DNA of 64,000 bases, taken from the NCBI RefSeq assembly GCF_006540305.1, contig NZ_BJOR01000002.1, positions 248,001 to 312,000 on the forward strand, read 5' to 3'. A program made the translations under genes and the position numbers. The notes beneath the pieces were generated by a model that saw nothing but the letters and a program-made list of their open reading frames with translations, did not search any database and was not told where the DNA came from. Source of the stretch: Streptomyces sp. 6-11-2 (lineage in GTDB: Bacteria > Actinomycetota > Actinomycetes > Streptomycetales > Streptomycetaceae). Positions 1-16,060 of this stretch are shown here, piece by piece; the stretch's first letter is position 1, and each line of letters opens with the position of its first letter.

Positions 1-1139
1 GCGCCGAGCACCTTCAACAGCCCGGCCACGCCCGCCGGGGCCAGCAGATGTCCGACGTTCGACTTCACCGAACCGATGGGCACGTCGTCACCGGCCCCGA
101 AGACCCGCGCCATGCCGCGCGCCTCCACCGCGTCCCCGACCGGCGTCCCCGTCGCATGGCACTCGACGAGCGACACGCTCTCGGGCGCGACGCCCGCCGC
201 GTCGTACGCCAGGCGCATGGCCCGGACCTGGCCCTCCTCCGACGGACTGATCAGCCCGGCGCCGCGCCCGTCGTTGGACAACCCGACACCGCGGATCACC
301 CCGAGTACGGGCAGACGGGCGGCGCGGGCCTCGGACAGCCGCATCAGGGCGACGAACCCGGCGCCCTCGCCGTGCACCAGCCCGTCCGCGTCCCGGTGGA
401 AGGGCCGGCTGCGCCCGGTGCGGCTCGTCGCGGACAGCCCGCAGAACCCCACGTGCAGGTAGAGGGGGTCCGCCCGGCTGACCGCACCGGCCACCATCAG
501 GTCCGCCGTGCCGTCGTGCAGCCGGTCGCACGCCAGCTTGACCGCGTACAGCGACGACGCGCAGGCGGCGTCGAGGGACCACGCCCCCGCGCCCAGCCCG
601 AGCGCCCGGGCCGCGAGCCGGGCGGGCAGCCCGGACGAGAAGCGGTTCCGGGCGTCGGGCCGCTCCCGGCGCTCTCCTGTCAGCAGGGCGTCACGGAGCG
701 GGGGTCGCTGGGCGGACAGCCAGACGTGCTCGGCGAAAGCCGCCCCCGAGGGCGTGGGATAGGACAGGTTTCCCAGCACGAGCCCGGCGCGCGGCAGCGG
801 GCCCTCGCGGCCCGCCTCCGTGAGCGCCTGCCGGACGCCGTACATGACCCAGTGGAAGAGCGGGTCCAGCGACAGGATCCGCTCCGGGGCGATCCGGAAG
901 CCGCTCGGGTCGAAGACGGACTCGAACCCCCGTACGTACCCCCCGACATCGGTCCAGGTGCGGTCGAGGTGGTCGTCCACCGAGCCCATGGCCCAGCGGC
1001 GCGGCAGCCGCCACCGGCCCTCCGGGACGACCGACAGGCTGGTGCGGCCCGCGGCGACGTTGTCCCAGAACGTGTCCGGATCGAGCGCGTCGGGCAGTAC
1101 ACAGCCCCGGCCGACGACGGCGATCGGTTCGAATTCCAT
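1..1139 (-). CDS. Beta-ketoacyl synthase of a PUFA/hglE-type PKS (partial)
   Basis: Condensing enzyme that should carry out decarboxylative Claisen condensation in the neighbouring synthase. The frame opens at ATG 1139 with MEFEPIAVVGRG, a typical KS N-terminus, and runs off the left edge after 379 codons, so later domains are unseen. The catalytic triad is complete: Cys193 in DAACASS, His328 in ECHATGTPVGD and His364 in KSNVGHLL. EGAGF is also present. It is the fourth gene of a same-strand series (reductase, PfaD-like, PfaA-like, this KS), 122 bp downstream of the PfaA-like gene and separated from it by a G-rich repeat. In PUFA clusters this position is usually a PfaC-like KS-CLF-DH protein, so the full gene may be much longer. 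KS identity is near certain; its exact role in the cluster is inferred. Confidence 0.93.
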   Translation of the reverse strand, partial: MEFEPIAVVGRGCVLPDALDPDTFWDNVAAGRTSLSVVPEGRWRLPRRWAMGSVDDHLDRTWTDVGGYVRGFESVFDPSGFRIAPERILSLDPLFHWVMYGVRQALTEAGREGPLPRAGLVLGNLSYPTPSGAAFAEHVWLSAQRPPLRDALLTGERRERPDARNRFSSGLPARLAARALGLGAGAWSLDAACASSLYAVKLACDRLHDGTADLMVAGAVSRADPLYLHVGFCGLSATSRTGRSRPFHRDADGLVHGEGAGFVALMRLSEARAARLPVLGVIRGVGLSNDGRGAGLISPSEEGQVRAMRLAYDAAGVAPESVSLVECHATGTPVGDAVEARGMARVFGAGDDVPIGSVKSNVGHLLAPAGVAGLLKVLG

Positions 1140-1189
1140 GCGGGTCTCACTTCACGGCAGGGCACGTGGGCAGGGCAGGGCAGGTTCGC

Positions 1190-1245
1190 GGGGGCTGGGG
1201 GCTGGGGGCTGGGGGCTGGGGGCTGGGGGCTCGGGGCTGGGGGCT
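1190..1245. repeat. Tandem GGGGGCT heptamer repeat
   Basis: The 122-bp gap between two synthase genes contains about eight units of a heptamer with the CT step recurring every 7 bp (1195 to 1230), then two further units offset by one extra C. G-runs of four to five lie on the plus strand, which is the template strand for the leftward genes. The run could fold as a G-quadruplex. No promoter or terminator is evident in the rest of the gap. Confidence 0.9.
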
Positions 1246-1261
1246 CGGGTGGCGCCGGGGC

Positions 1262-7405
<6,144 letters not shown>

Positions 7406-7461
7406 GGTATCTCCTCGGAGCTGGACGGCTGCTGCTGACGCCCGCGGGGCGCCGGGGCCGC

Positions 7462-9045
7462 TCATGCCAGCCCGCACGGGGTGTAGGCGAGCGCCTCGGA
7501 CGGCAACGGGACTCCGTAGGTGCGCAGTTGATGAGCGCGGGTGAGCACCGCGGCGCCTTCGAGCAGGTTGAGCGCGATCTGCACCACGGACCGGTTCGCC
7601 GGGTCGGCCAGGAACGTGCCCGCGACCCAGCGGTTGAACGCGCCCATCGCCGGTCCGCACCAGATCTGGTAGTCGGCACGCCGGGCCGTCTCGCCGGTGA
7701 TCGCCCACCGGCTGGAACTGCCCAGGTACCAGCGGAAGACCAGCGCCATACGGTGCCTGGGATCGGCCTCCGCACGCGTGATCTCCGAGGGGTCGCGCCG
7801 CTCCCAGAACGCGCGCGTGCGCTGCCAGACCTCGTCGAACGAGGCGCGCAGCACGTCCCGTTCGAGCGTGGCGCGCACCGTGGGAGGGATCTCCTCCAGC
7901 GAACCGTGCGCCCGGTACGCCGCGTGGAGCCTGTCGGCCCGCCGCGCGAACATCGTCCCCCGGGACAGCACTTGCAGCGTGACCCCGAGTTCGAACATGT
8001 CCGCCGCCGGCGCCATGGCCACGTCGGCGACATCCGCCTCGCAGAGCATCGCCTTGGCCTCGTCGGACAGGCCCGCCTCGACGGCCGTCTGGTTCACCGA
8101 TCCGACGACCACGTAGGACGCGCCGAGGGCGAAGGCGGCGGCCACCGCGGCCGGCGTGCCCAGCCCGCCGGCCGCGCCGATCCTGACCGGCCGGGGGTAG
8201 CCGAACCGCCGGCACAGCGCGTCGCGCAGCAGGACGATCCGCGGCAGCAGGGCCGACAGCGGCCGGTTGTCGGTGTGGCCTCCGCTGTCGGCCTCCACGG
8301 TGATGTCCTCGGCCACCGGAACCCGGGCCGCCAGACCGGCCTCCTCCGGGGTGAGCCTCCCGTCGGCGACGAGCCGGTCCAGCAGCGCCGCCGGGGCGGG
8401 GGAGAGGAACCTCTCGGCCACCTCGGGCCGGGAGACCTTGGCGAGCATCCGCGTGCGCCGGACGATCCCGCCGTCGGCGCCGCGGCGCAGTCCCCGGGCC
8501 GAGCACAGCACGACGGCCGGGGTCAGTTCCATGAACGCCGACGCCGAGATGCGGGGCACACCGCGGTGCGACAGCAGCTCGGCGACGCGGAACTCCAGCG
8601 CGGGTTCGGCCGGTGAGTGGATGAGGTTCACGCCCCAGTTCGGCCGGGACCGCAGCTCCTGGGCCAGCGCGTGCACGGCCCGCTCCACCTCGGTGTACGC
8701 CAGGCCGCCGGCGCCGAAGAACCCGAGCATCTCCGCCCGCGCCATCGCGGAGACCATCCGGGTGGTCGAGATGCCGTTCGCCATTTCCCCGGCCACATAG
8801 GGGAAACGGACGCCGTGCGCCTCGCAGAACGTGCGCCCGCCGAGCCACTCGGGGTACAGCGGCGGCAGCGTACCGAGCACCGGGCCGTCGGGTACGGGGC
8901 CGGTCGCGAGGCCCAGCTCACGGCCGCTCGGCCCGCCGACGATGTGCACGGGTTCCCGGATCCGTCGGGCACGGGCGGCGATCTCCTCCAGGGAGAAGAC
9001 CGGTGAGGACGCGGTGGGGGCGTCGGGGGCGGAGAGGACGGGCAC
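7462..9045 (-). CDS. pfaD: PfaD-family enoyl reductase
   Basis: FMN-dependent enoyl reductase of the PfaD family, expected to act in trans on ACP-bound enoyl intermediates of the neighbouring synthase. The 527-residue protein has a 2-nitropropane-dioxygenase-like TIM barrel. A Gly-rich phosphate/FMN-binding stretch (GAAGGLGTP) is followed by a second loop near SYVVVGSVNQ. Length fits the family. GTG 9045 is preceded by GGAG at about 7 nt. Its TGA overlaps an ATG in frame with the PfaA-like gene, so the two are probably co-translated. A PfaD homologue next to a PfaA-like protein is diagnostic of PUFA or hglE-type loci and is not found in ordinary modular PKS clusters. The assignment is firm; the substrate is unknown. 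Confidence 0.93.
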   Translation of the reverse strand: MPVLSAPDAPTASSPVFSLEEIAARARRIREPVHIVGGPSGRELGLATGPVPDGPVLGTLPPLYPEWLGGRTFCEAHGVRFPYVAGEMANGISTTRMVSAMARAEMLGFFGAGGLAYTEVERAVHALAQELRSRPNWGVNLIHSPAEPALEFRVAELLSHRGVPRISASAFMELTPAVVLCSARGLRRGADGGIVRRTRMLAKVSRPEVAERFLSPAPAALLDRLVADGRLTPEEAGLAARVPVAEDITVEADSGGHTDNRPLSALLPRIVLLRDALCRRFGYPRPVRIGAAGGLGTPAAVAAAFALGASYVVVGSVNQTAVEAGLSDEAKAMLCEADVADVAMAPAADMFELGVTLQVLSRGTMFARRADRLHAAYRAHGSLEEIPPTVRATLERDVLRASFDEVWQRTRAFWERRDPSEITRAEADPRHRMALVFRWYLGSSSRWAITGETARRADYQIWCGPAMGAFNRWVAGTFLADPANRSVVQIALNLLEGAAVLTRAHQLRTYGVPLPSEALAYTPCGLA

Positions 9046-9078
9046 GGAGGGGCTCCAGCGGGAGAGGAGGTGTGCGGG

Positions 9079-10266
9079 TCAGGCGTACCGGGCGGACGGG
9101 AAGGCGGCGGTGGGCGTGGGCGATGGACCGGCGGTAACCGGGTCCCTTAGGGCCAGTCCGGACCACAGGTGGTCGAGGTCCACCCGGCCGGAGGCTGCCG
9201 ACGACCCGAACAGGGCCCGGACCCGGGTGTCGTCGAAGCGCCGTCGGTGGGTCAGGTAGGCCGTCAGACCCGGGTAGAAGTCCACCAGCGCCTCCAGCGC
9301 CGACGGGTCGTCCGGCTTCGTGGCGACCAGGTCGATCGACAACCGGACCAGCCGTTCCAGCAGGGTCACGATCGTCGGCACGGGCACGTCGCGGTCATGG
9401 ACGACGTGGTACGTGTCGACTCCGCCCGAGGGCGTCAGGCCGGCCAGCCGCACCATGACCTCGGCCGCGTGCTCCACCGGCATCAGGTTCAGATGACCGT
9501 GGCGATGACCCACCAACCGGATGCGGGGACGGCCGCCAGGGCCGGCGCTGCGGGGGCCCGCGGACTCGGCGCCGTCGTGATCCGGGCTGCCGGGACCGGC
9601 GGTGCGTCGCGCGTCGCGCAGGATCCGCTCGATGACCTGAAGCGGGTGCGAGGGCAGGTCCGGGTGCGGCGGCAGGTCCGTGACCAGGATGCTCGGCCGC
9701 AGCACCACGACCGGACGGCGGTGCTCCCGCGACCACGCGTGGACCAACACCTCCGCCTCGTACTTGGAGCGTTCATAGGCGTTCTCGAAGCCGTACGCGT
9801 CGTCCAGCTCGTCCTCGTACGCCACCCCCTCGCGCCGACTCCCGGCCACGAACGCGGTACTCACGTGGTGGACCACGGGTCTCGCGCGTCCGGCGGCGGC
9901 CAACTCCAGTACGTGGCGGGTCCCTTCGACGTTGGTCCGGCGCAACTCGGGTAGCTCACCCTCAAGGTTGATGCTGCCCGCGCTGTGCCAGATCGCGCCG
10001 AGACCGTCGGCCAACTCCTGGAACGCGCGCCCGGACAGGCCCAGCCCGGGCCGCTCCAACTCGGTCTCCACCACCCGCAGCCGGCCGGGGAGTCCGGCGA
10101 CGAACGCCTCGGGTTCGCCGGTCAGCGCGAAGAACCGGGTGATGCGGTGCAGCGCGTCGCCCGACCCCGCGTGGGCCAGGACCGTCACCGACCGGTGTGT
10201 GTCGAGCAGGCGGCGCAGCAGGCGCAGTCCGAGGAATCCGGTGGCGCCGGTGAGGGCGACGTGCAT
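9079..10266 (-). CDS. Thioester reductase (SDR extended, NAD(P)-dependent)
   Basis: Stand-alone thioester reductase-like protein of 395 residues. It begins MHVALTGATGFLG, the Rossmann GxxGxxG at residues 7-12, and has the YxxxK catalytic pair as Tyr164 and Lys168 (YERSK). Family members release acyl chains from a carrier protein as aldehyde or alcohol using NAD(P)H. Comparable domains are fused to heterocyst-glycolipid synthases and to carboxylic acid reductases. It is the first gene of the leftward series and lies 33 bp before pfaD, so it probably supplies reductive chain release. ATG 10266 is chosen because the Rossmann motif starts immediately after it; AAGG lies just upstream. Whether it reduces by two or four electrons cannot be told. 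Confidence 0.88.
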   Translation of the reverse strand: MHVALTGATGFLGLRLLRRLLDTHRSVTVLAHAGSGDALHRITRFFALTGEPEAFVAGLPGRLRVVETELERPGLGLSGRAFQELADGLGAIWHSAGSINLEGELPELRRTNVEGTRHVLELAAAGRARPVVHHVSTAFVAGSRREGVAYEDELDDAYGFENAYERSKYEAEVLVHAWSREHRRPVVVLRPSILVTDLPPHPDLPSHPLQVIERILRDARRTAGPGSPDHDGAESAGPRSAGPGGRPRIRLVGHRHGHLNLMPVEHAAEVMVRLAGLTPSGGVDTYHVVHDRDVPVPTIVTLLERLVRLSIDLVATKPDDPSALEALVDFYPGLTAYLTHRRRFDDTRVRALFGSSAASGRVDLDHLWSGLALRDPVTAGPSPTPTAAFPSARYA

Positions 10267-10962
10267 GACCTTGGCTCCAAGGGCTCCGAAAAGGGACAGG
10301 ACCACGACCGCGTGCGAGGGCGGTGAAGACTGGGCCGCTGCGGCGGCCGGGGAGGGGGGTGCAGCCGACCGTCCCATGGCGCGGCATGACACCGGCGGGC
10401 GCGGCCTGATGATCGCCGACGCAAGGCACACAGTGTCAGACGGTGGACGGTGCCGGAGCTTCTGAACCCGTCGGCTCACCTGAACGGATGACCCGGGCCA
10501 CGGTCTGTGCGTGTCCCGGACGGCCCTTGAAAGCCCCCGTCGCGAGCCAGGGCGCCCGGCCGTAGGGACGCGACGGAGCAGCCGCGACCGAGCGGGCCAC
10601 TGGGAGGACTGTCCTCCCTTCGGGTGATCCCGCCGGCGGTGGTGGAGAGGCGGTTCCGGGTGGTTCCGCCTCGCCGCCGGCGGGCGGTGCGGGGCGTCGA
10701 GCCCGGTGGGGCAGGGGGGAGCGCGTACTCCCGGCGCGGGGGAAGCCCGTGCTCCGGTGCGCCTGCGGGCGCGTACGGCCGCTCACCACCGCCGGATATA
10801 AACCGTGTTGATCCAGGCCGAGGTGACGCGTTCGGCGCCGCCACGGATCCGTACTCGTCGGCGGCCCTTCTGATCGGTGATCCATCCCGCGGTCGGTCGG
10901 GATGGCCGACGGCCCGGCCTCGCCCCGCCTGCCCGTCCCTCGGCACGAATGGAAGTTCCCCG
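10267..10962. other. Divergent intergenic region, no gene seen
   Basis: About 700 bp between the leftward synthase operon and the rightward WS/DGAT gene. It should hold both promoters. No reading frame with convincing coding character or recognisable protein was found on either strand, and no clear -35/-10 pair or operator stands out. Confidence 0.6.
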
Positions 10963-12279
10963 ATGCCCGAATCCGTTGAGCCGGCCCAGTCCGTTCCCTG
11001 CCCCAGCCGCCCCACCCACACGGTCGACCGGGCCTTCCTCAGCATGGAACGCCGCCACCCCGACGTCCGCTGGGACGCCGGCGGCGTCGCGTATCTGAGC
11101 GGTCCGCCCCCGAGCCTGGCGGACCTCCGCGCCTACGTGGGCTTCCGCCTGGGGCGGCTGCCCCTGCTCACGAGCCGGGTCGAGGGCGGCCCACGGCGCC
11201 CCCGGTGGCGGCCGGACGCCGACTTCAGCATCGACCGGCACGTCCACGAGGTCGTCGCGGAGGGCCCCGAGGGGTGGGACGCCGCCCTGCACACCGCGCT
11301 CAACGCGTCCTTCACGCCCGGCACTTACTGGGGAGTCTGGCTGGTCCACGGCCACGCGCCCGACGAGTACGCCCTGTGCTACCGCTTCCACCACGCCTGC
11401 CAGGACGGTTCGGCCGCCGCCATGACGTTCCGCGCCATGCTGGGCGAGGGGGAGGCCTCGGCCCGCCCGGTGCCGGGGAAGGGCCGCCTGACCGGTCTGC
11501 CCCGGCGGGTGGGCACGGCCGTCGGGCTGGCCGCGAAGTTCGTGGCCGGCTCCCTCGCGGTCCGCGGTCACCGTCCGGCCGTCCCCTTCGTTCCCACGGG
11601 AGAGCGGCGGTTGTGGCGGGGCCGAGTCCCGGCGGACGCCCTCCGCCGGATCGGCGCGGCACGTGGCGGATCGGCCCATGACGCCCATCTGGCCGCGCTC
11701 GGGGGGGCGTTGTCGGCCTGGTCGGCCAAGTCCGGTGTACGGCTTCCCCGGGTGACGGCGCTGCTGCCCGTGGACGCACGCCGTCCGGACGAGGAACAGA
11801 CCTGGGGCAACCGCTGTTTCGCGCTGCCGCTGGAGCTGCCCGTACGGACCGCCGCGGAACGCGGCACAAGGCCTCAGGACGGCGACGCGCCCCTGCGGCG
11901 GCTGGAGCACGTCATGGCGACGACCCGGAAACTGCGGGGGGAGGCCTGGCGGCAGGCGATTCAGGACCTGGTGTGCCACATGCCGGACCGCCCGACCGAG
12001 TGGTACCTGCGAAGGATGCTCTCCCCGCGCGTCACCCAGGTCATGGCCACGTCCATGCCGGTCGCCGACAAGGGCAGCCTGGGGAACACCCAGGTGACGG
12101 GGGTCGCCCTGCTCCCCCTGCTCGTGCCCGGACATCTCTTCGGAGTGGGCCTGTCGTTCTTCGGCAGCTGGGCCGAGGTGGCCTTCGTGTCCGACCGCGC
12201 CCTTCCGCTCGGGGAGCGGCTTCCGGAACTGTGGGAGCAGGCCGTCGGTGAGCTGGAGGGGGCCGTGGCCCCGGAGTGA
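10963..12279 (+). CDS. WS/DGAT-type O-acyltransferase
   Basis: Acyl-CoA-dependent O-acyltransferase of the wax ester synthase/diacylglycerol acyltransferase family, 438 residues. The catalytic HHxxxDG is intact as HHACQDG (His143, His144, Asp148), and the C-terminal half shows the usual LPVDAR and NRCFALPL-like segments. Family members esterify fatty alcohols or diacylglycerol at the membrane or lipid-droplet surface. ATG 10963 has GGAAG about 7 nt upstream. It is transcribed away from the synthase operon, whose thioester reductase could deliver an alcohol, so esterification of the synthase product is a natural hypothesis. Conventional triacylglycerol or wax metabolism is the alternative. It ends in a hairpin shared with the convergent monooxygenase gene. 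Confidence 0.9.
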   Translation: MPESVEPAQSVPCPSRPTHTVDRAFLSMERRHPDVRWDAGGVAYLSGPPPSLADLRAYVGFRLGRLPLLTSRVEGGPRRPRWRPDADFSIDRHVHEVVAEGPEGWDAALHTALNASFTPGTYWGVWLVHGHAPDEYALCYRFHHACQDGSAAAMTFRAMLGEGEASARPVPGKGRLTGLPRRVGTAVGLAAKFVAGSLAVRGHRPAVPFVPTGERRLWRGRVPADALRRIGAARGGSAHDAHLAALGGALSAWSAKSGVRLPRVTALLPVDARRPDEEQTWGNRCFALPLELPVRTAAERGTRPQDGDAPLRRLEHVMATTRKLRGEAWRQAIQDLVCHMPDRPTEWYLRRMLSPRVTQVMATSMPVADKGSLGNTQVTGVALLPLLVPGHLFGVGLSFFGSWAEVAFVSDRALPLGERLPELWEQAVGELEGAVAPE

Positions 12280-12394: not shown

Positions 12395-13771
12395 TCACAC
12401 GGCGTCGGCCGCCGGGGCGGAGCCGGTCACGGCGGACAGGGCCGGGACGGCGCCGGGTGCGCGACGCCTGCCCGCCCGGCGTTCCCGGCGGAGAGCCCTT
12501 CGGTAGGAGCGGAAGTCGACTTCGATCCCGTGGCGGTAGGTGGACACGTACGTCCTGCGATGGCGGCGCCACTCACGCGCGATCGCCCGCGTCATGTCCG
12601 CCGGTGACGGCAGGGCGACCGCGCCCTCGATCAGCTCGGCGATCCATTCCGCCTGCGGTTCGAGCAGCGGGAAGGCCGCACCGGAGGGCTGCGCGAGCCC
12701 CATGAAGTAGAGCCCGGGGATGCGTGGCGGGATCGTACGCAGATAGAGCTCCGTACGGCCGTCCGGGGCGGCGAACAGGGAGGGCTCCAGGAAGGGGAAG
12801 GAGATCTTGTACCCGGTGGCGTACACCACGGCGTCCACCGGCTCACGGCTGCCGTCCGTGAAGGCCGCCGTGTCCGGGCCGAAGGAACGGACACCGGGCT
12901 TCGGCGTGACCGCGCCACGGGACAGCTGGACGAGGAGTTCGTCGGACGTGGACGGGTGGCGTGCGAGCGGCCCGCGGTCCGGTTCGGGGAGCCCGTAATG
13001 AGCCGGGGCACCACGGGTGAGCCGCAGGAGGAGCCGCAGCGCGGGGTCCTTGAGGAACCGCGGGACATCGGACAGCGGGCTCCACACCAAGTGGTCCGCC
13101 GGACGACCGAGCAGCATCTTGGGGAACAGATGCGCCGCGTCGCGCGCGGACAGGAACGTCCGCGCCGCCGTGCGCGAGATCTCCGCCGCGATTTCGCACG
13201 CGGAGTTGCCCATGCCGATCACCAGCACCCGCAGACCGGTGTACGGGTCAGGGGTGCGGTAGTCGTGCGAGTGGATCGCGGTCCCCTCGAACTCCTCGGC
13301 ACCGGGCACGGCGGGGGCCGGGAGCCGCGGGTCCCAGTGGTGCCCGTTGGCCACCACCACCTCGGAGTAGCGCCGCGTCTCCTCGGCCGCGTCGGCGCGG
13401 CGCCGGCAGACCACCTCCCAGCCGCCGCCGTCCAGGGGCCGCACCGAAGTGACCTCCGTGCCGCACACGATGTGGCGGTGCAGGCCGAACGACGCGGCGT
13501 AGTCCTCCAGATAGGCCAGGACCATGCTGTGGTGCGGAAAGACCGGGCTGGTCTCCGGCATGGCCAGGGAGGAGAAGGACATGCTCTCCTTCGAGATGTT
13601 CGCGTGCAGTGACGCGTACACCCCCGACATGCCGTTGTCGTTGCCGTACCGCCAGAGTCCGCCGATGCCGGACCCGGCCTCGAAGCAGTCGAACGGGACG
13701 TTCCGCGAGGCGAAGACCTTGCTCGCGGCCAGGCCGGACGGGCCGGCGCCGATCACACATGTTCTCCGCAT
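12395..13771 (-). CDS. Flavin-containing monooxygenase
   Basis: NADPH- and FAD-dependent class B monooxygenase of 458 residues. It has an N-terminal FAD Rossmann motif (VIGAGPSG, residues 6-13), the FMO fingerprint FxGxxxHxxxY (FEGTAIHSHDY, about 165-175), an NADPH-binding GMGNSA near 186 and a late ATG motif (YATGYK). The family oxygenates N or S atoms or performs Baeyer-Villiger reactions on small lipophilic substrates. AGGAAGG lies about 9 nt before ATG 13771. The last 40 residues are Arg- and Ala-rich and not part of the usual fold. The gene is convergent with the WS/DGAT gene. A role in tailoring the neighbouring lipid or polyketide is possible but rests only on position. Confidence 0.9.
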   Translation of the reverse strand: MRRTCVIGAGPSGLAASKVFASRNVPFDCFEAGSGIGGLWRYGNDNGMSGVYASLHANISKESMSFSSLAMPETSPVFPHHSMVLAYLEDYAASFGLHRHIVCGTEVTSVRPLDGGGWEVVCRRRADAAEETRRYSEVVVANGHHWDPRLPAPAVPGAEEFEGTAIHSHDYRTPDPYTGLRVLVIGMGNSACEIAAEISRTAARTFLSARDAAHLFPKMLLGRPADHLVWSPLSDVPRFLKDPALRLLLRLTRGAPAHYGLPEPDRGPLARHPSTSDELLVQLSRGAVTPKPGVRSFGPDTAAFTDGSREPVDAVVYATGYKISFPFLEPSLFAAPDGRTELYLRTIPPRIPGLYFMGLAQPSGAAFPLLEPQAEWIAELIEGAVALPSPADMTRAIAREWRRHRRTYVSTYRHGIEVDFRSYRRALRRERRAGRRRAPGAVPALSAVTGSAPAADAV

Positions 13772-14067: not shown

Positions 14068-14682
14068 ATGGACGTCACAGATGTGCACCACTCCTACCGG
14101 CAGCACACAGTTCTACGGGGCGTCGACCTCCGGCTGCCGCCCGGAGTCCTGGCCGGGATCGTCGGGGAGAACGGCGCCGGAAAGACGACGCTGCTGAGGA
14201 TCCTCTCCGGTGAACTCGGGCCGGACCGGGGCGCGGTGCGCCACAGCGGGAGGTTCGGCTACTGCCCGCAGTCGGTGGTCCTGGACGACTCCTTCACCGT
14301 CCGCCAGCACCTGGACTTCTTCCGGCACGCCTTCGGTCTCGCGGACCTTCGGCGGGCCGAGGAAGTGATGGAGGCGCTGGCCTTCACCGAGTACCTCGAC
14401 CAGCGTGCGGGTCTGCTGAGTGGGGGTTCACGGCAGAAGCTGAACCTGACCCTCGCGCTCATGCACGACCCGGACGTACTGCTGCTGGACGAGCCCTATC
14501 AGGGCTTCGACTGGGAGACGTATCTGCGCTTCTGGGAGCTGGCGACCAGGCTGCGCGACGCCGGACGTTCGGTGCTGGTCGTCTCGCACCTGGCGTACGA
14601 CATCGACCGGCTGGACGAGTTGTGGCGCCTGGAGAACGGGCGCCTCCACCGCCAGGACCGGTGCGCGGAGGTGGCGGCATGA
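14068..14682 (+). CDS. ABC transporter ATP-binding protein
   Basis: Nucleotide-binding subunit of 204 residues. Walker A is GENGAGKT (33-40), the signature is LSGGSRQ, Walker B ends VLLLDEP and the switch His is in VVSHLAY. It is short for the family but has every catalytic motif. GGAG lies 8 nt before ATG 14068. Its TGA overlaps the ATG of the membrane subunit (ATGA), so the two form a translationally coupled pair. It resembles the single-domain ATPases of ABC-2 exporters, with little beyond the core domain. The substrate is unknown; proximity to the synthase locus makes export of that product a candidate role. Confidence 0.92.
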   Translation: MDVTDVHHSYRQHTVLRGVDLRLPPGVLAGIVGENGAGKTTLLRILSGELGPDRGAVRHSGRFGYCPQSVVLDDSFTVRQHLDFFRHAFGLADLRRAEEVMEALAFTEYLDQRAGLLSGGSRQKLNLTLALMHDPDVLLLDEPYQGFDWETYLRFWELATRLRDAGRSVLVVSHLAYDIDRLDELWRLENGRLHRQDRCAEVAA

Positions 14683-15494
14683 GACGGCACTGGTCGCTGT
14701 TGACCACGGCCTCCCGGTACGCGCTGATCGGTCACGCCCGCAACCGGTTCGCGATGCTGCTCGTGGTGGTGTACATCCCCGTATGGATCGCCCTGGCCTA
14801 CCTGACCATTCCCGACCGCCCGGCGCCGTTCCGGCTGCGGGCCACGGGCGAGGTCCTGACTCCCCCCGGCAACCATCTCACCCAGATCACCGGCGCGCTG
14901 AATGCCGTCACCCTGATCGCCGGGTTCATGATGTTCGCCGCCACCTTCACGGGTGGTGCCTTCGACCGGCGCCTGGCCATGGCGGGGTACCCGCGCCACC
15001 ACCTGGTCCTCGCCAAGCTCTCCGCGCTCACCCTCGTCTGCGCCGCCATCGCCGCATACGCCACGGCCGCCGCCGGCTTCGCCTGGTCCCCCCGGCAGCC
15101 CCTCATGCTCGCCGCCGCGCTGTTCTGCGCCGCCCTGACCTACGGCGCGCTCGGAGTGGTCTTCGGCTCGGTGCTCCGCCGCGAGGTGGAGGGCATGTTC
15201 GCCATCCTGATGATCAGCGTCATCGACGTCGCCCTGCAGAACCCCCTGTCCAGTTCGGGGTCGGACAGCGCCGTCGTGCGCTTCCTGCCGTCGTACGGAG
15301 CCGTGCAGGCCAGCATGTCCGCGGCGTTCTCCAACGCACCGGTGGCCCAGGGTCTCGCGATCCAGTTGATCTGGCTGACGGGGGCGGCACTGGCGGGGTT
15401 CATGGTCTTCCGCCGCCGTACCCGCGACGCGCTGCCACCGGGACGGGCGGCCGTGTCCTGCGGGGCCAATGATCGTTCTGTAACCGGGTGTTGA
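14679..15494 (+). CDS. ABC-2 type membrane permease
   Basis: Membrane subunit of 271 residues partnering the preceding ATPase. Hydrophobic segments are visible near residues 25-45 (MLLVVVYIPVWIALAYL), 85-105, 120-145, 150-170, 185-200 and 235-255, consistent with about six membrane spans. ATG 14679 overlaps the ATPase stop by four bases. The sequence has no soluble binding domain, so the pair is more likely an exporter than an importer. The next gene, for a secreted protein, starts 44 bp downstream and may be in the same transcript. Confidence 0.85.
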   Translation: MRRHWSLLTTASRYALIGHARNRFAMLLVVVYIPVWIALAYLTIPDRPAPFRLRATGEVLTPPGNHLTQITGALNAVTLIAGFMMFAATFTGGAFDRRLAMAGYPRHHLVLAKLSALTLVCAAIAAYATAAAGFAWSPRQPLMLAAALFCAALTYGALGVVFGSVLRREVEGMFAILMISVIDVALQNPLSSSGSDSAVVRFLPSYGAVQASMSAAFSNAPVAQGLAIQLIWLTGAALAGFMVFRRRTRDALPPGRAAVSCGANDRSVTGC

Positions 15495-15538: not shown

Positions 15539-16060
15539 ATGACCCTGTCGCGTACCGTCCAGCGCACGGTCCTCACCGCGGCCCTCCTGTCCGCCTCCGC
15601 CCTGGCCTTCCCCGCCTCCGCTCAGGCGGCCCCGCTGCCGCCCGCGTGTCAGGAGGCGTTGCTCACCACCCTCGACAAGTTCCCGGTCACGGACTTCACG
15701 GTCCCCGACAAGGTCCAGAACGCCATGCTGGTCGAGGTCATGAACCTGAGCGACGCCGACCAGCAGGCCATGACCCAGGAGGCGTGCGCGGCCTGGAACA
15801 ACTGGGCCACCAAGAACGGCCAGGCGGTGGCCACGGACCTGGACACCCGCTACCGGAACGCCGCCGGGCCCGCGTGCAACAAGTTCACCACCTCCGCCAT
15901 CGGGGTGATCAAGAAGTACGCTCCGAACATCCCCGCTCAGACAAGGGAGTTGGAGAAGGTGGCCAAGAAGGTCTGGCAGAACACCATGCAGAAGCTCTCC
16001 GTGGAGGCCACCAACGCCGACTGCCGCAAGGCCTACAACGGGGTCAAGACCGGCTGGTAA
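15539..16060 (+). CDS. Small secreted protein of unknown function
   Basis: A 173-residue protein with a clear Sec signal peptide: a basic start (MTLSRTVQR), a hydrophobic core (LTAALLSASALAF) and an AQA-A cleavage site near residue 30. The mature part is rich in Ala, Asn, Lys and Thr and has four cysteines (PPAC, QEAC, GPAC, ADC) that could form two disulfides outside the cell. I do not recognise the family. GAGGAG lies about 10 nt before ATG 15539. It follows the ABC pair closely and is directly followed by a strong hairpin, so it closes this transcript. Function is unknown. Confidence 0.85.
   Translation: MTLSRTVQRTVLTAALLSASALAFPASAQAAPLPPACQEALLTTLDKFPVTDFTVPDKVQNAMLVEVMNLSDADQQAMTQEACAAWNNWATKNGQAVATDLDTRYRNAAGPACNKFTTSAIGVIKKYAPNIPAQTRELEKVAKKVWQNTMQKLSVEATNADCRKAYNGVKTGW

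Follow-up and report, generated by a model that had tools for sequence, protein, structure and literature searches.

A polyunsaturated fatty acid-type synthase of Streptomyces sp. 6-11-2, its stand-alone thioester reductase and a candidate route to an ester lipid

Among the described relatives of the locus discussed here is the 'Type L' secondary-lipid synthase of Shulse & Allen 2011 (PMC3098273), a type that includes S. coelicolor A3(2). The locus lies at the left end of a 64,000-nucleotide stretch of Streptomyces sp. 6-11-2 DNA (the window, G000:C2:248001-312000, in a genome of 8.73 Mb and three contigs, which protein matches assign to Streptomyces). It combines a synthase of the polyunsaturated fatty acid (PUFA) type with a separate thioester reductase (TR) and a divergently transcribed gene of the wax ester synthase/diacylglycerol acyltransferase (WS/DGAT, or WS) family, and this combination points to an alcohol-derived ester as a possible product. 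Type L likewise has a Streptomyces host and the order pfaD (5'), pfaA and a fused pfaBC, the last with ketosynthase (KS), chain length factor (CLF), acyltransferase (AT) and two dehydratases (DH); its text writes KS-CLF-DH2-AT, whereas in the window the AT precedes the DHs. Neither a thioester reductase nor a wax synthase is named in the available main text of that paper: the word 'wax' does not occur in it, and 'thioester' occurs once, for the acyl carrier protein (ACP).

The marine PfaABCDE systems for eicosapentaenoic acid (EPA) and docosahexaenoic acid have PfaA, PfaD, KS-CLF and FabA-type DH homologues in common with the window, whose KS shares a clade with that of a six-ACP synthase. The window differs from them in its one ACP, in a PfaB-like AT fused into the PfaC-like protein, in the TR and WS/DGAT, and in having no local phosphopantetheinyl transferase (PPTase). 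A Pfa-like synthase together with a thioester reductase is also found in the cyanobacterial hglBCDEA system, the product of which is an alkyl-diol glycolipid (PMC8064123, PMC3098273); there, however, HglB is an ACP-TR didomain, and glycosylation and DevBCA export belong to the hgl side (PMC8064123). In the Serratia zeamine genes zmn10-14, PfaA, PfaC and PfaD homologues stand beside a stand-alone TR (Zmn14, 412 aa), as in the window, but the PfaD protein carries an aminotransferase, the partner is a non-ribosomal peptide synthetase/polyketide synthase (NRPS/PKS), and wax synthase is not mentioned in the available text (PMC3547906). HglB and Zmn14 are precedents, and a reductase beside a Pfa-type synthase is therefore already known. 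The pfa-PKS-NRPS hybrids of Streptomyces ('Clade V', PMC13291983) have pfaD, pfaA and a fused pfaBC with two dehydratase/isomerase units in common with the window; they are tied to PKS and NRPS lines and a metallophore-type product, and TR is mentioned for zeamine alone in the available parts of that paper. A literature search at the level of titles and abstracts found no description of a PUFA-type synthase with both TR and wax synthase. As far as the literature was searched, the product is largely undescribed, as had been supposed in an earlier reading of the window made from the sequence only.

The synthase genes and the TR gene form one minus-strand series of four that reads leftward as TR, PfaD, PfaA-like and PfaBC-like (about C2:242552-258266), with intergenic gaps, at the starts used, of 33, 56 and 122 bases. 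In window coordinates, the series and its divergent neighbour are as follows.

1..1139, minus strand: N-terminal 379 aa (KS) of the PfaBC-like protein; the remainder lies left of the window, at G000:C2:242552-248000
1262..7405, minus strand: PfaA-like synthase, 2047 aa, KS-AT-ACP-ketoreductase (KR)-DH; TIGR02813, 1199.6 bits
6158..7363, minus strand: KS domain of PfaA (domain and motif analysis, KS tree)
4703..5674, minus strand: AT domain of PfaA, motif GHSFG (domain and motif analysis)
3680..3883, minus strand: ACP of PfaA, motif DSIK, the sole ACP found (domain and motif analysis)
2222..2887, minus strand: KR domain of PfaA (domain and motif analysis)
1277..2020, minus strand: PKS-type DH domain of PfaA (domain and motif analysis)
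7462..9045, minus strand: PfaD family enoyl reductase; TIGR02814, 673.7 bits
9079..10266, minus strand: stand-alone TR; PF07993, with a glycine-rich NAD(P) motif and Ser-Thr, Tyr and Lys
10267..10962, no strand: TR-WS/DGAT intergenic region with the divergent promoters; a block at about 10410-10450 is partly conserved
10963..12279, plus strand: WS/DGAT-family acyltransferase, motif HHACQDG; PF03007 above cut-off

It is close to certain that the locus encodes an iterative synthase of the PUFA type. The scores of the PfaA-like protein and of PfaD lie well clear of the model cut-offs (1010.1 bits for TIGR02813 and 449.25 bits for TIGR02814). The KS at the window edge, which the sequence-only reading had listed as a KS, is present; it is neither a lone nor a truncated KS, being the start (aa 1-379) of a 2195-aa protein that ends at G000:C2:242552 and has the domain order KS-CLF-AT-DH-DH. 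In its CLF the KS cysteine is replaced (by Glu, from a reading of the motif). Its AT, assigned by PF00698, has a GYSSG motif and reaches 72.4 bits against the PfaB model TIGR02816, which is under the cut-off of 144.3. The FabA-type repeats (PF07977, 291 bits) carry two full HFxxDPxxPG motifs and correspond to two dehydratase/isomerase units; both motifs are present in 14 of the 15 loci checked. The KS of this protein has a long branch, and its best solved match is 6riw 'ORF10', which we take to be PfaC of Moritella. The functions that had been expected on the left flank are thus largely in place, namely the CLF and two FabA-type DHs, along with a second AT. The expected PPTase is absent from the locus, and both PF01648 matches of the genome sit on contig C1.

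The placement of the KS agrees with this assignment. The tree has 50 rows, among them 22 of the 43 named TR-PfaD loci and the S. tendae KS, with HglE, SCO0126 and marine PfaABCDE outside the sample. The window PfaA falls inside a 26-row clade (100/99) that is nested in a 32-row clade (100/99). The smaller clade consists of TR-linked relatives together with Azospirillum lipoferum and one further genome (G054), the last two having no TR match in their stretches, and the larger one includes Persicobacter psychrovividus, whose synthase has six ACPs in tandem. A clade apart is made up of ten other type I PKS rows, and the enediyne row is not in the PUFA-type clade. A modular or an enediyne PKS, considered as a candidate, is ruled out by this tree and by the PfaA model TIGR02813. 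Tandem ACP domains, a distinguishing but not a required trait of Pfa synthases according to the available text of Shulse & Allen (PMC3098273), were not found in the window PfaA, which has one ACP. A single ACP motif is also present in each of 15 related Streptomyces loci (15 of 18 fetched, the three shorter ones being left out). The sequence-only reading is upheld in its one-ACP KS-AT-ACP-KR-DH synthase, its PfaD enoyl reductase, its separate TR, their arrangement in one leftward series and their PUFA-type assignment, and the KS phylogeny it had proposed sets the KS apart from other type I PKS and enediyne KS. Its further statement, that a single ACP sets the locus apart, is true of the window and fails as a rule for TR-linked loci, because the TR-linked cluster of Embleya sp. 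NBC_00888 has two ACPs.

The TR belongs to PF07993 (E=1.4e-44), and all 15 rows aligned (the window and 14 of the 18 fetched loci) keep its glycine motif, Ser-Thr, Tyr and Lys without change. The best fold matches of its predicted structure (pLDDT 75.6) are terminal reductase domains of PKS/NRPS type, namely the R domain of MxaA and a PKS reductase domain from S. coelicolor, with a TM score of about 0.65; R domains of carboxylic acid reductases are also among the matches. R domains of the MxaA type form alcohols. It is very likely, judging from gene and domain anatomy, that the TR would release the chain from the ACP reductively, and the product would probably be an alcohol rather than an aldehyde. 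Reductive release had been proposed earlier, and it is supported to this extent; the earlier interpretation as a whole is supported in part. It had omitted the WS/DGAT neighbour, which is the best clue to the step after release.

The WS/DGAT gene at 10963-12279 scores 34.4 bits against PF03007 (cut-off 23.6), one of two PF03007 matches in the 8.7 Mb of the host genome, and many of its homologues carry the NCBI name wax ester/triacylglycerol synthase. In the HHxxxDG motif the second His, the Asp and the Gly are invariant in ten of ten rows (the window and nine whole-gene loci). The top three Foldseek matches are wax synthases, chains of AbWSD1 7nxg and Marinobacter 6chj, which share PF03007 and HxxxDG with the window protein; it is a distant relative of both, with 15-18% identity in the structure match of a weak model. 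It is fairly probable that the WS enzyme would esterify the released alcohol.

The occurrence of the two genes across genomes links them further. In 343 Streptomyces genomes, TR orthologues (E<=1e-140) and WS orthologues (at least 299 bits) are found in the same 15 genomes and neither in the other 328, with five candidates scored per genome for TR and for WS. Thirteen of the 15 have both genes on one contig, and the remaining two have WS near a contig end. The next-best TR matches, from four genomes (E about 1e-105 to 1e-110), come without a WS match at 1e-40.

Beyond this survey, the best 80 of at least 133 confirmed TR loci were named and compared. PfaD was called linked when up to 4 kb downstream of TR on the same strand, WS was called near when within 4.5 kb, and a locus had room when at least 2.5 kb lay upstream; the stretches were read without the flank downstream of PfaBC, and the WS counts cover the TR side. 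PfaD is linked to TR in 43 of the 80, and the PfaA KS comes next in all 43, a nonrandom association. WS is near TR in 23 of the 38 PfaD-TR loci with room, counted with a model seeded from the relatives of the window gene, which distant WS genes could escape. Five PfaD-TR loci are too short upstream, and one of these still shows WS. Among the PfaD-less TR loci with room, WS is near TR in one of 27; L138, short of room, also has WS. With PF03007 matches numbering up to 60 in 25 such genomes, we estimate the chance of such closeness at well under 1%. In a WS tree of 35 chosen sequences the PfaD-linked WS genes stand in three places: the main Streptomyces clade, L110 on a long branch, and L125/L130, in which the gene order is TR-WS-PfaD. 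These three positions could result from one gain and two losses.

From the gene order, the domains, the active-site motifs, the KS placement and the co-occurrence of TR and WS, all of them features of the sequence itself, the following pathway can be proposed. The PfaBC-like protein, the one-ACP PfaA-like protein and PfaD would build a long, possibly polyunsaturated acyl chain iteratively, with a PPTase supplied from elsewhere in the genome. The TR would then cut the chain off the ACP as an aldehyde or, more likely, an alcohol, and not as a free acid or a membrane lipid. In the clade of the window, the divergent WS/DGAT-family enzyme would join the alcohol to acyl-CoA (or acyl-ACP) to give an ester, and the ABC transporter and small secreted protein encoded nearby may carry the lipid to the outside of the cell or keep it there. 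Release by reduction, the alcohol in preference to the aldehyde, esterification and export are steps that we infer, and the pathway taken as a whole is somewhat favoured.

Several observations weigh against this pathway. Linked genes are inherited together, and co-occurrence is therefore no proof of one pathway; the five candidates scored per genome set a further limit to it. WS is not near TR in 15 of the 38 informative PfaD-TR loci; among these 15 are the loci of the S. griseoviridis group and those of Actinoalloteichus, Parafrankia and Embleya. In the WS tree the main clade has an unlinked Embleya gene as its nearest relative, and the TR tree (41 rows; L033 was dropped as too short) shows no joint movement of TR and WS. 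Only three of the 16 weaker WS matches in the 343-genome survey lie by a TR match (G086, G347 and G036), and two genomes (G072 and G132) have such a WS but show no TR within the 19 kb that were read. Within the order of the host, a PfaBC/PfaD-type cluster (L029 of G045) contains a P450, a haem peroxidase, an AMP ligase, an ACP, a WS/DGAT and two PlsC-type acyltransferase genes, one GPAT-like and one HAD-PlsC; no TR was matched in the part read, and in the tree the WS of this cluster falls among unlinked WS genes. The TR itself reaches 131.9 bits against TIGR01746, under the cut-off of 213.35. Electron number, chain length and unsaturation are not readable from sequence. The WS protein is divergent, aligning with TIGR02946 over its full length at 110.5 bits, under the cut-off of 309.95; the first His of HHxxxDG varies among the WS rows, and its structural model is poor (pLDDT 49.4, too weak to be used alone). 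In four genomes without TR/WS, an ABC membrane protein lies up to 2.4 kb from the secreted protein.

The cluster of the window would be orthologous to SCO0124-0127 of S. coelicolor, because the published numbering fits and the S. lividans homologue SLITK23_00630 is 76% identical to the window TR. The genes SCO0124-0129, or SCO0126-0127, have been called an EPA cluster (PMC2374992, PMC7324645, PMC6414726, PMC5932044), and no product is given in the available parts of these papers. Transcription of the S. coelicolor cluster is reported to be associated with sporulation, with a peak at 60 h in the parent that is missing in the ppGpp mutant (PMC2374992). The table in PMC5733532 places SCO0126-0127 under streptorubin B/undecylprodigiosin and SCO0124-0125 under EPA, apparently one cluster that has been split.

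An ordinary PUFA synthase, making a polyunsaturated acid such as EPA, either free or bound in phospholipid, beside TR and WS genes of unrelated function, would account for a PfaA protein above the TIGR02813 cut-off, for the pair of FabA-type DHs and for the published EPA label of SCO0124-0129. Such a synthase would leave unexplained the TR directly before PfaD in 43 of the 80 named loci, and the six-ACP Persicobacter cluster, for its part, has no TR match in 37 kb; this explanation is improbable. It is less so, though still unlikely, that the TR makes an alcohol or diol that becomes a glycolipid aglycone or receives another head group, as in the Hgl system, with no wax ester and with a WS that modifies a chain hydroxyl or is dispensable. 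HglB, the ACP-TR didomain of that Pfa-like system, is needed for the heterocyst and akinete glycolipid, its enzyme activity being described as unexplored in the available text (PMC8064123), and loci without WS do retain TR. Against this stand the strict co-occurrence of TR and WS in the window's own clade and the result of a Pfam scan of 15 proteins, a part of the neighbours, which showed no glycosyltransferase.

The TR might also stop after a two-electron reduction, so that the aldehyde is itself active or is altered further, for example by the flavin-binding monooxygenase (FMO) of the locus, while the WS acts elsewhere as a PapA5-like transferase. The R domains of carboxylic acid reductases among the fold matches and the FMO adjoining WS in 11 of 31 loci are in favour of it. 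The top fold matches, however, are R domains of the alcohol-forming MxaA type, and about half of the clusters that have WS lack the FMO and keep TR and WS; an aldehyde product of this kind is quite unlikely. With release as an alcohol followed by esterification, the EPA label of the S. coelicolor cluster of the same type is probably mistaken about the end product.

As an alternative to EPA, the conserved TR and WS/DGAT suggest something concrete: an ester lipid derived from an alcohol and perhaps associated with spores. If this is true, the PUFA-like sequence signature would be explained without free PUFA, and a TR adjoining a WS/DGAT would serve as a genome-mining handle for ester lipids of other synthases. 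A wider proposal can be made only tentatively: that TR and a specialised WS/DGAT are a recurrent 'reduce and esterify' pair of actinomycetes, used with PUFA-type synthases, with the type II-like KS of G086 and G347 and with the PKS of Amycolatopsis arida; that the product of the pair here is an ester of a long alcohol, possibly polyunsaturated, which is exported and tied to sporulation; and that the S. coelicolor 'EPA' cluster makes that ester, not EPA.

TR paralogues adjoin WS/DGAT genes in other systems in at least three of 25 cases. In G086 (L193:6474-11978) a WS/DGAT and a TR are adjacent, and after them come a type II-like KS and, by Pfam, also an ACP and an aromatic amino acid lyase, with no PfaD synthase. 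The arrangement in G347 (L194:7960-11877) is an adjacent WS/DGAT and TR and then a type II-like KS, found by tblastn alone, again with no PfaD synthase. In G036 (L192:8294-11893) TR, an acyl-CoA dehydrogenase and WS/DGAT form one series with the dehydrogenase in the middle. In A. arida, TR and WS lie beside another PKS. A transfer of TR and WS between synthases as a unit was considered and rejected: the A. arida WS groups with L125/L130 (100/100), but its TR does not group with theirs with support. A common enzyme that replaces WS upstream of TR where WS is missing was also rejected, as no shared function appeared among the neighbours scanned (20 of the 84 called, from loci with and without WS). 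In three Nocardia loci (L115, L117 and L121) a TR about 49% identical to that of the window stands upstream of a KS-AT synthase of an unrelated kind, at a distance of about 5-6 kb.

To the right of WS/DGAT the window contains four further genes of interest, which were counted as neighbours in 31 named loci (L084-L114).

12395..13771, minus strand: FMO, accessory; in 11 of the 31 named loci
14068..14682, plus strand: ABC transporter ATPase, frequent neighbour (profile match and neighbour counts)
14679..15494, plus strand: putative ABC transporter membrane subunit, frequent neighbour (PF12698 match under cut-off)
15539..16060, plus strand: small protein whose N-terminus is signal-like, with four invariant Cys, frequent neighbour (alignment, neighbour counts)

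The FMO is partial in two of its 11 loci. Its motif is presumably of the FMO type, and a Baeyer-Villiger role was set aside. The ABC ATPase (at least 80% identity) and the small secreted protein are each found in 14 of the 31. The four Cys of the secreted protein are invariant in 12 aligned rows; it belongs to no known family, and its named homologues are all from Streptomyces. It occurs in 17 of the 343 genomes, namely 13 of the 15 TR/WS genomes, in one of which (G219) it is about 130 kb from TR, and four of the 328 others. As the ABC genes and the secreted protein occur together without TR/WS, they form a unit of their own, which is often attached at the TR/WS locus. Export of the lipid by the ABC pair is accordingly a guess, and a doubtful one.

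A 139-aa membrane protein left of PfaBC (C2:241985-242404) was considered as a part of the locus and rejected, since it matches no family above cut-off; it is also unmatched in 18 related loci, several of which stop shortly past PfaBC. Just past the far end of the PfaBC gene of one related locus, a response regulator and a histidine kinase form a pair on the opposite strand (L009:3792-5957). In the region between TR and WS/DGAT, the block at window 10410-10450 (around CACACAGTGTCAGACGG) is kept in an alignment of 12 loci and is possibly a common regulatory site.

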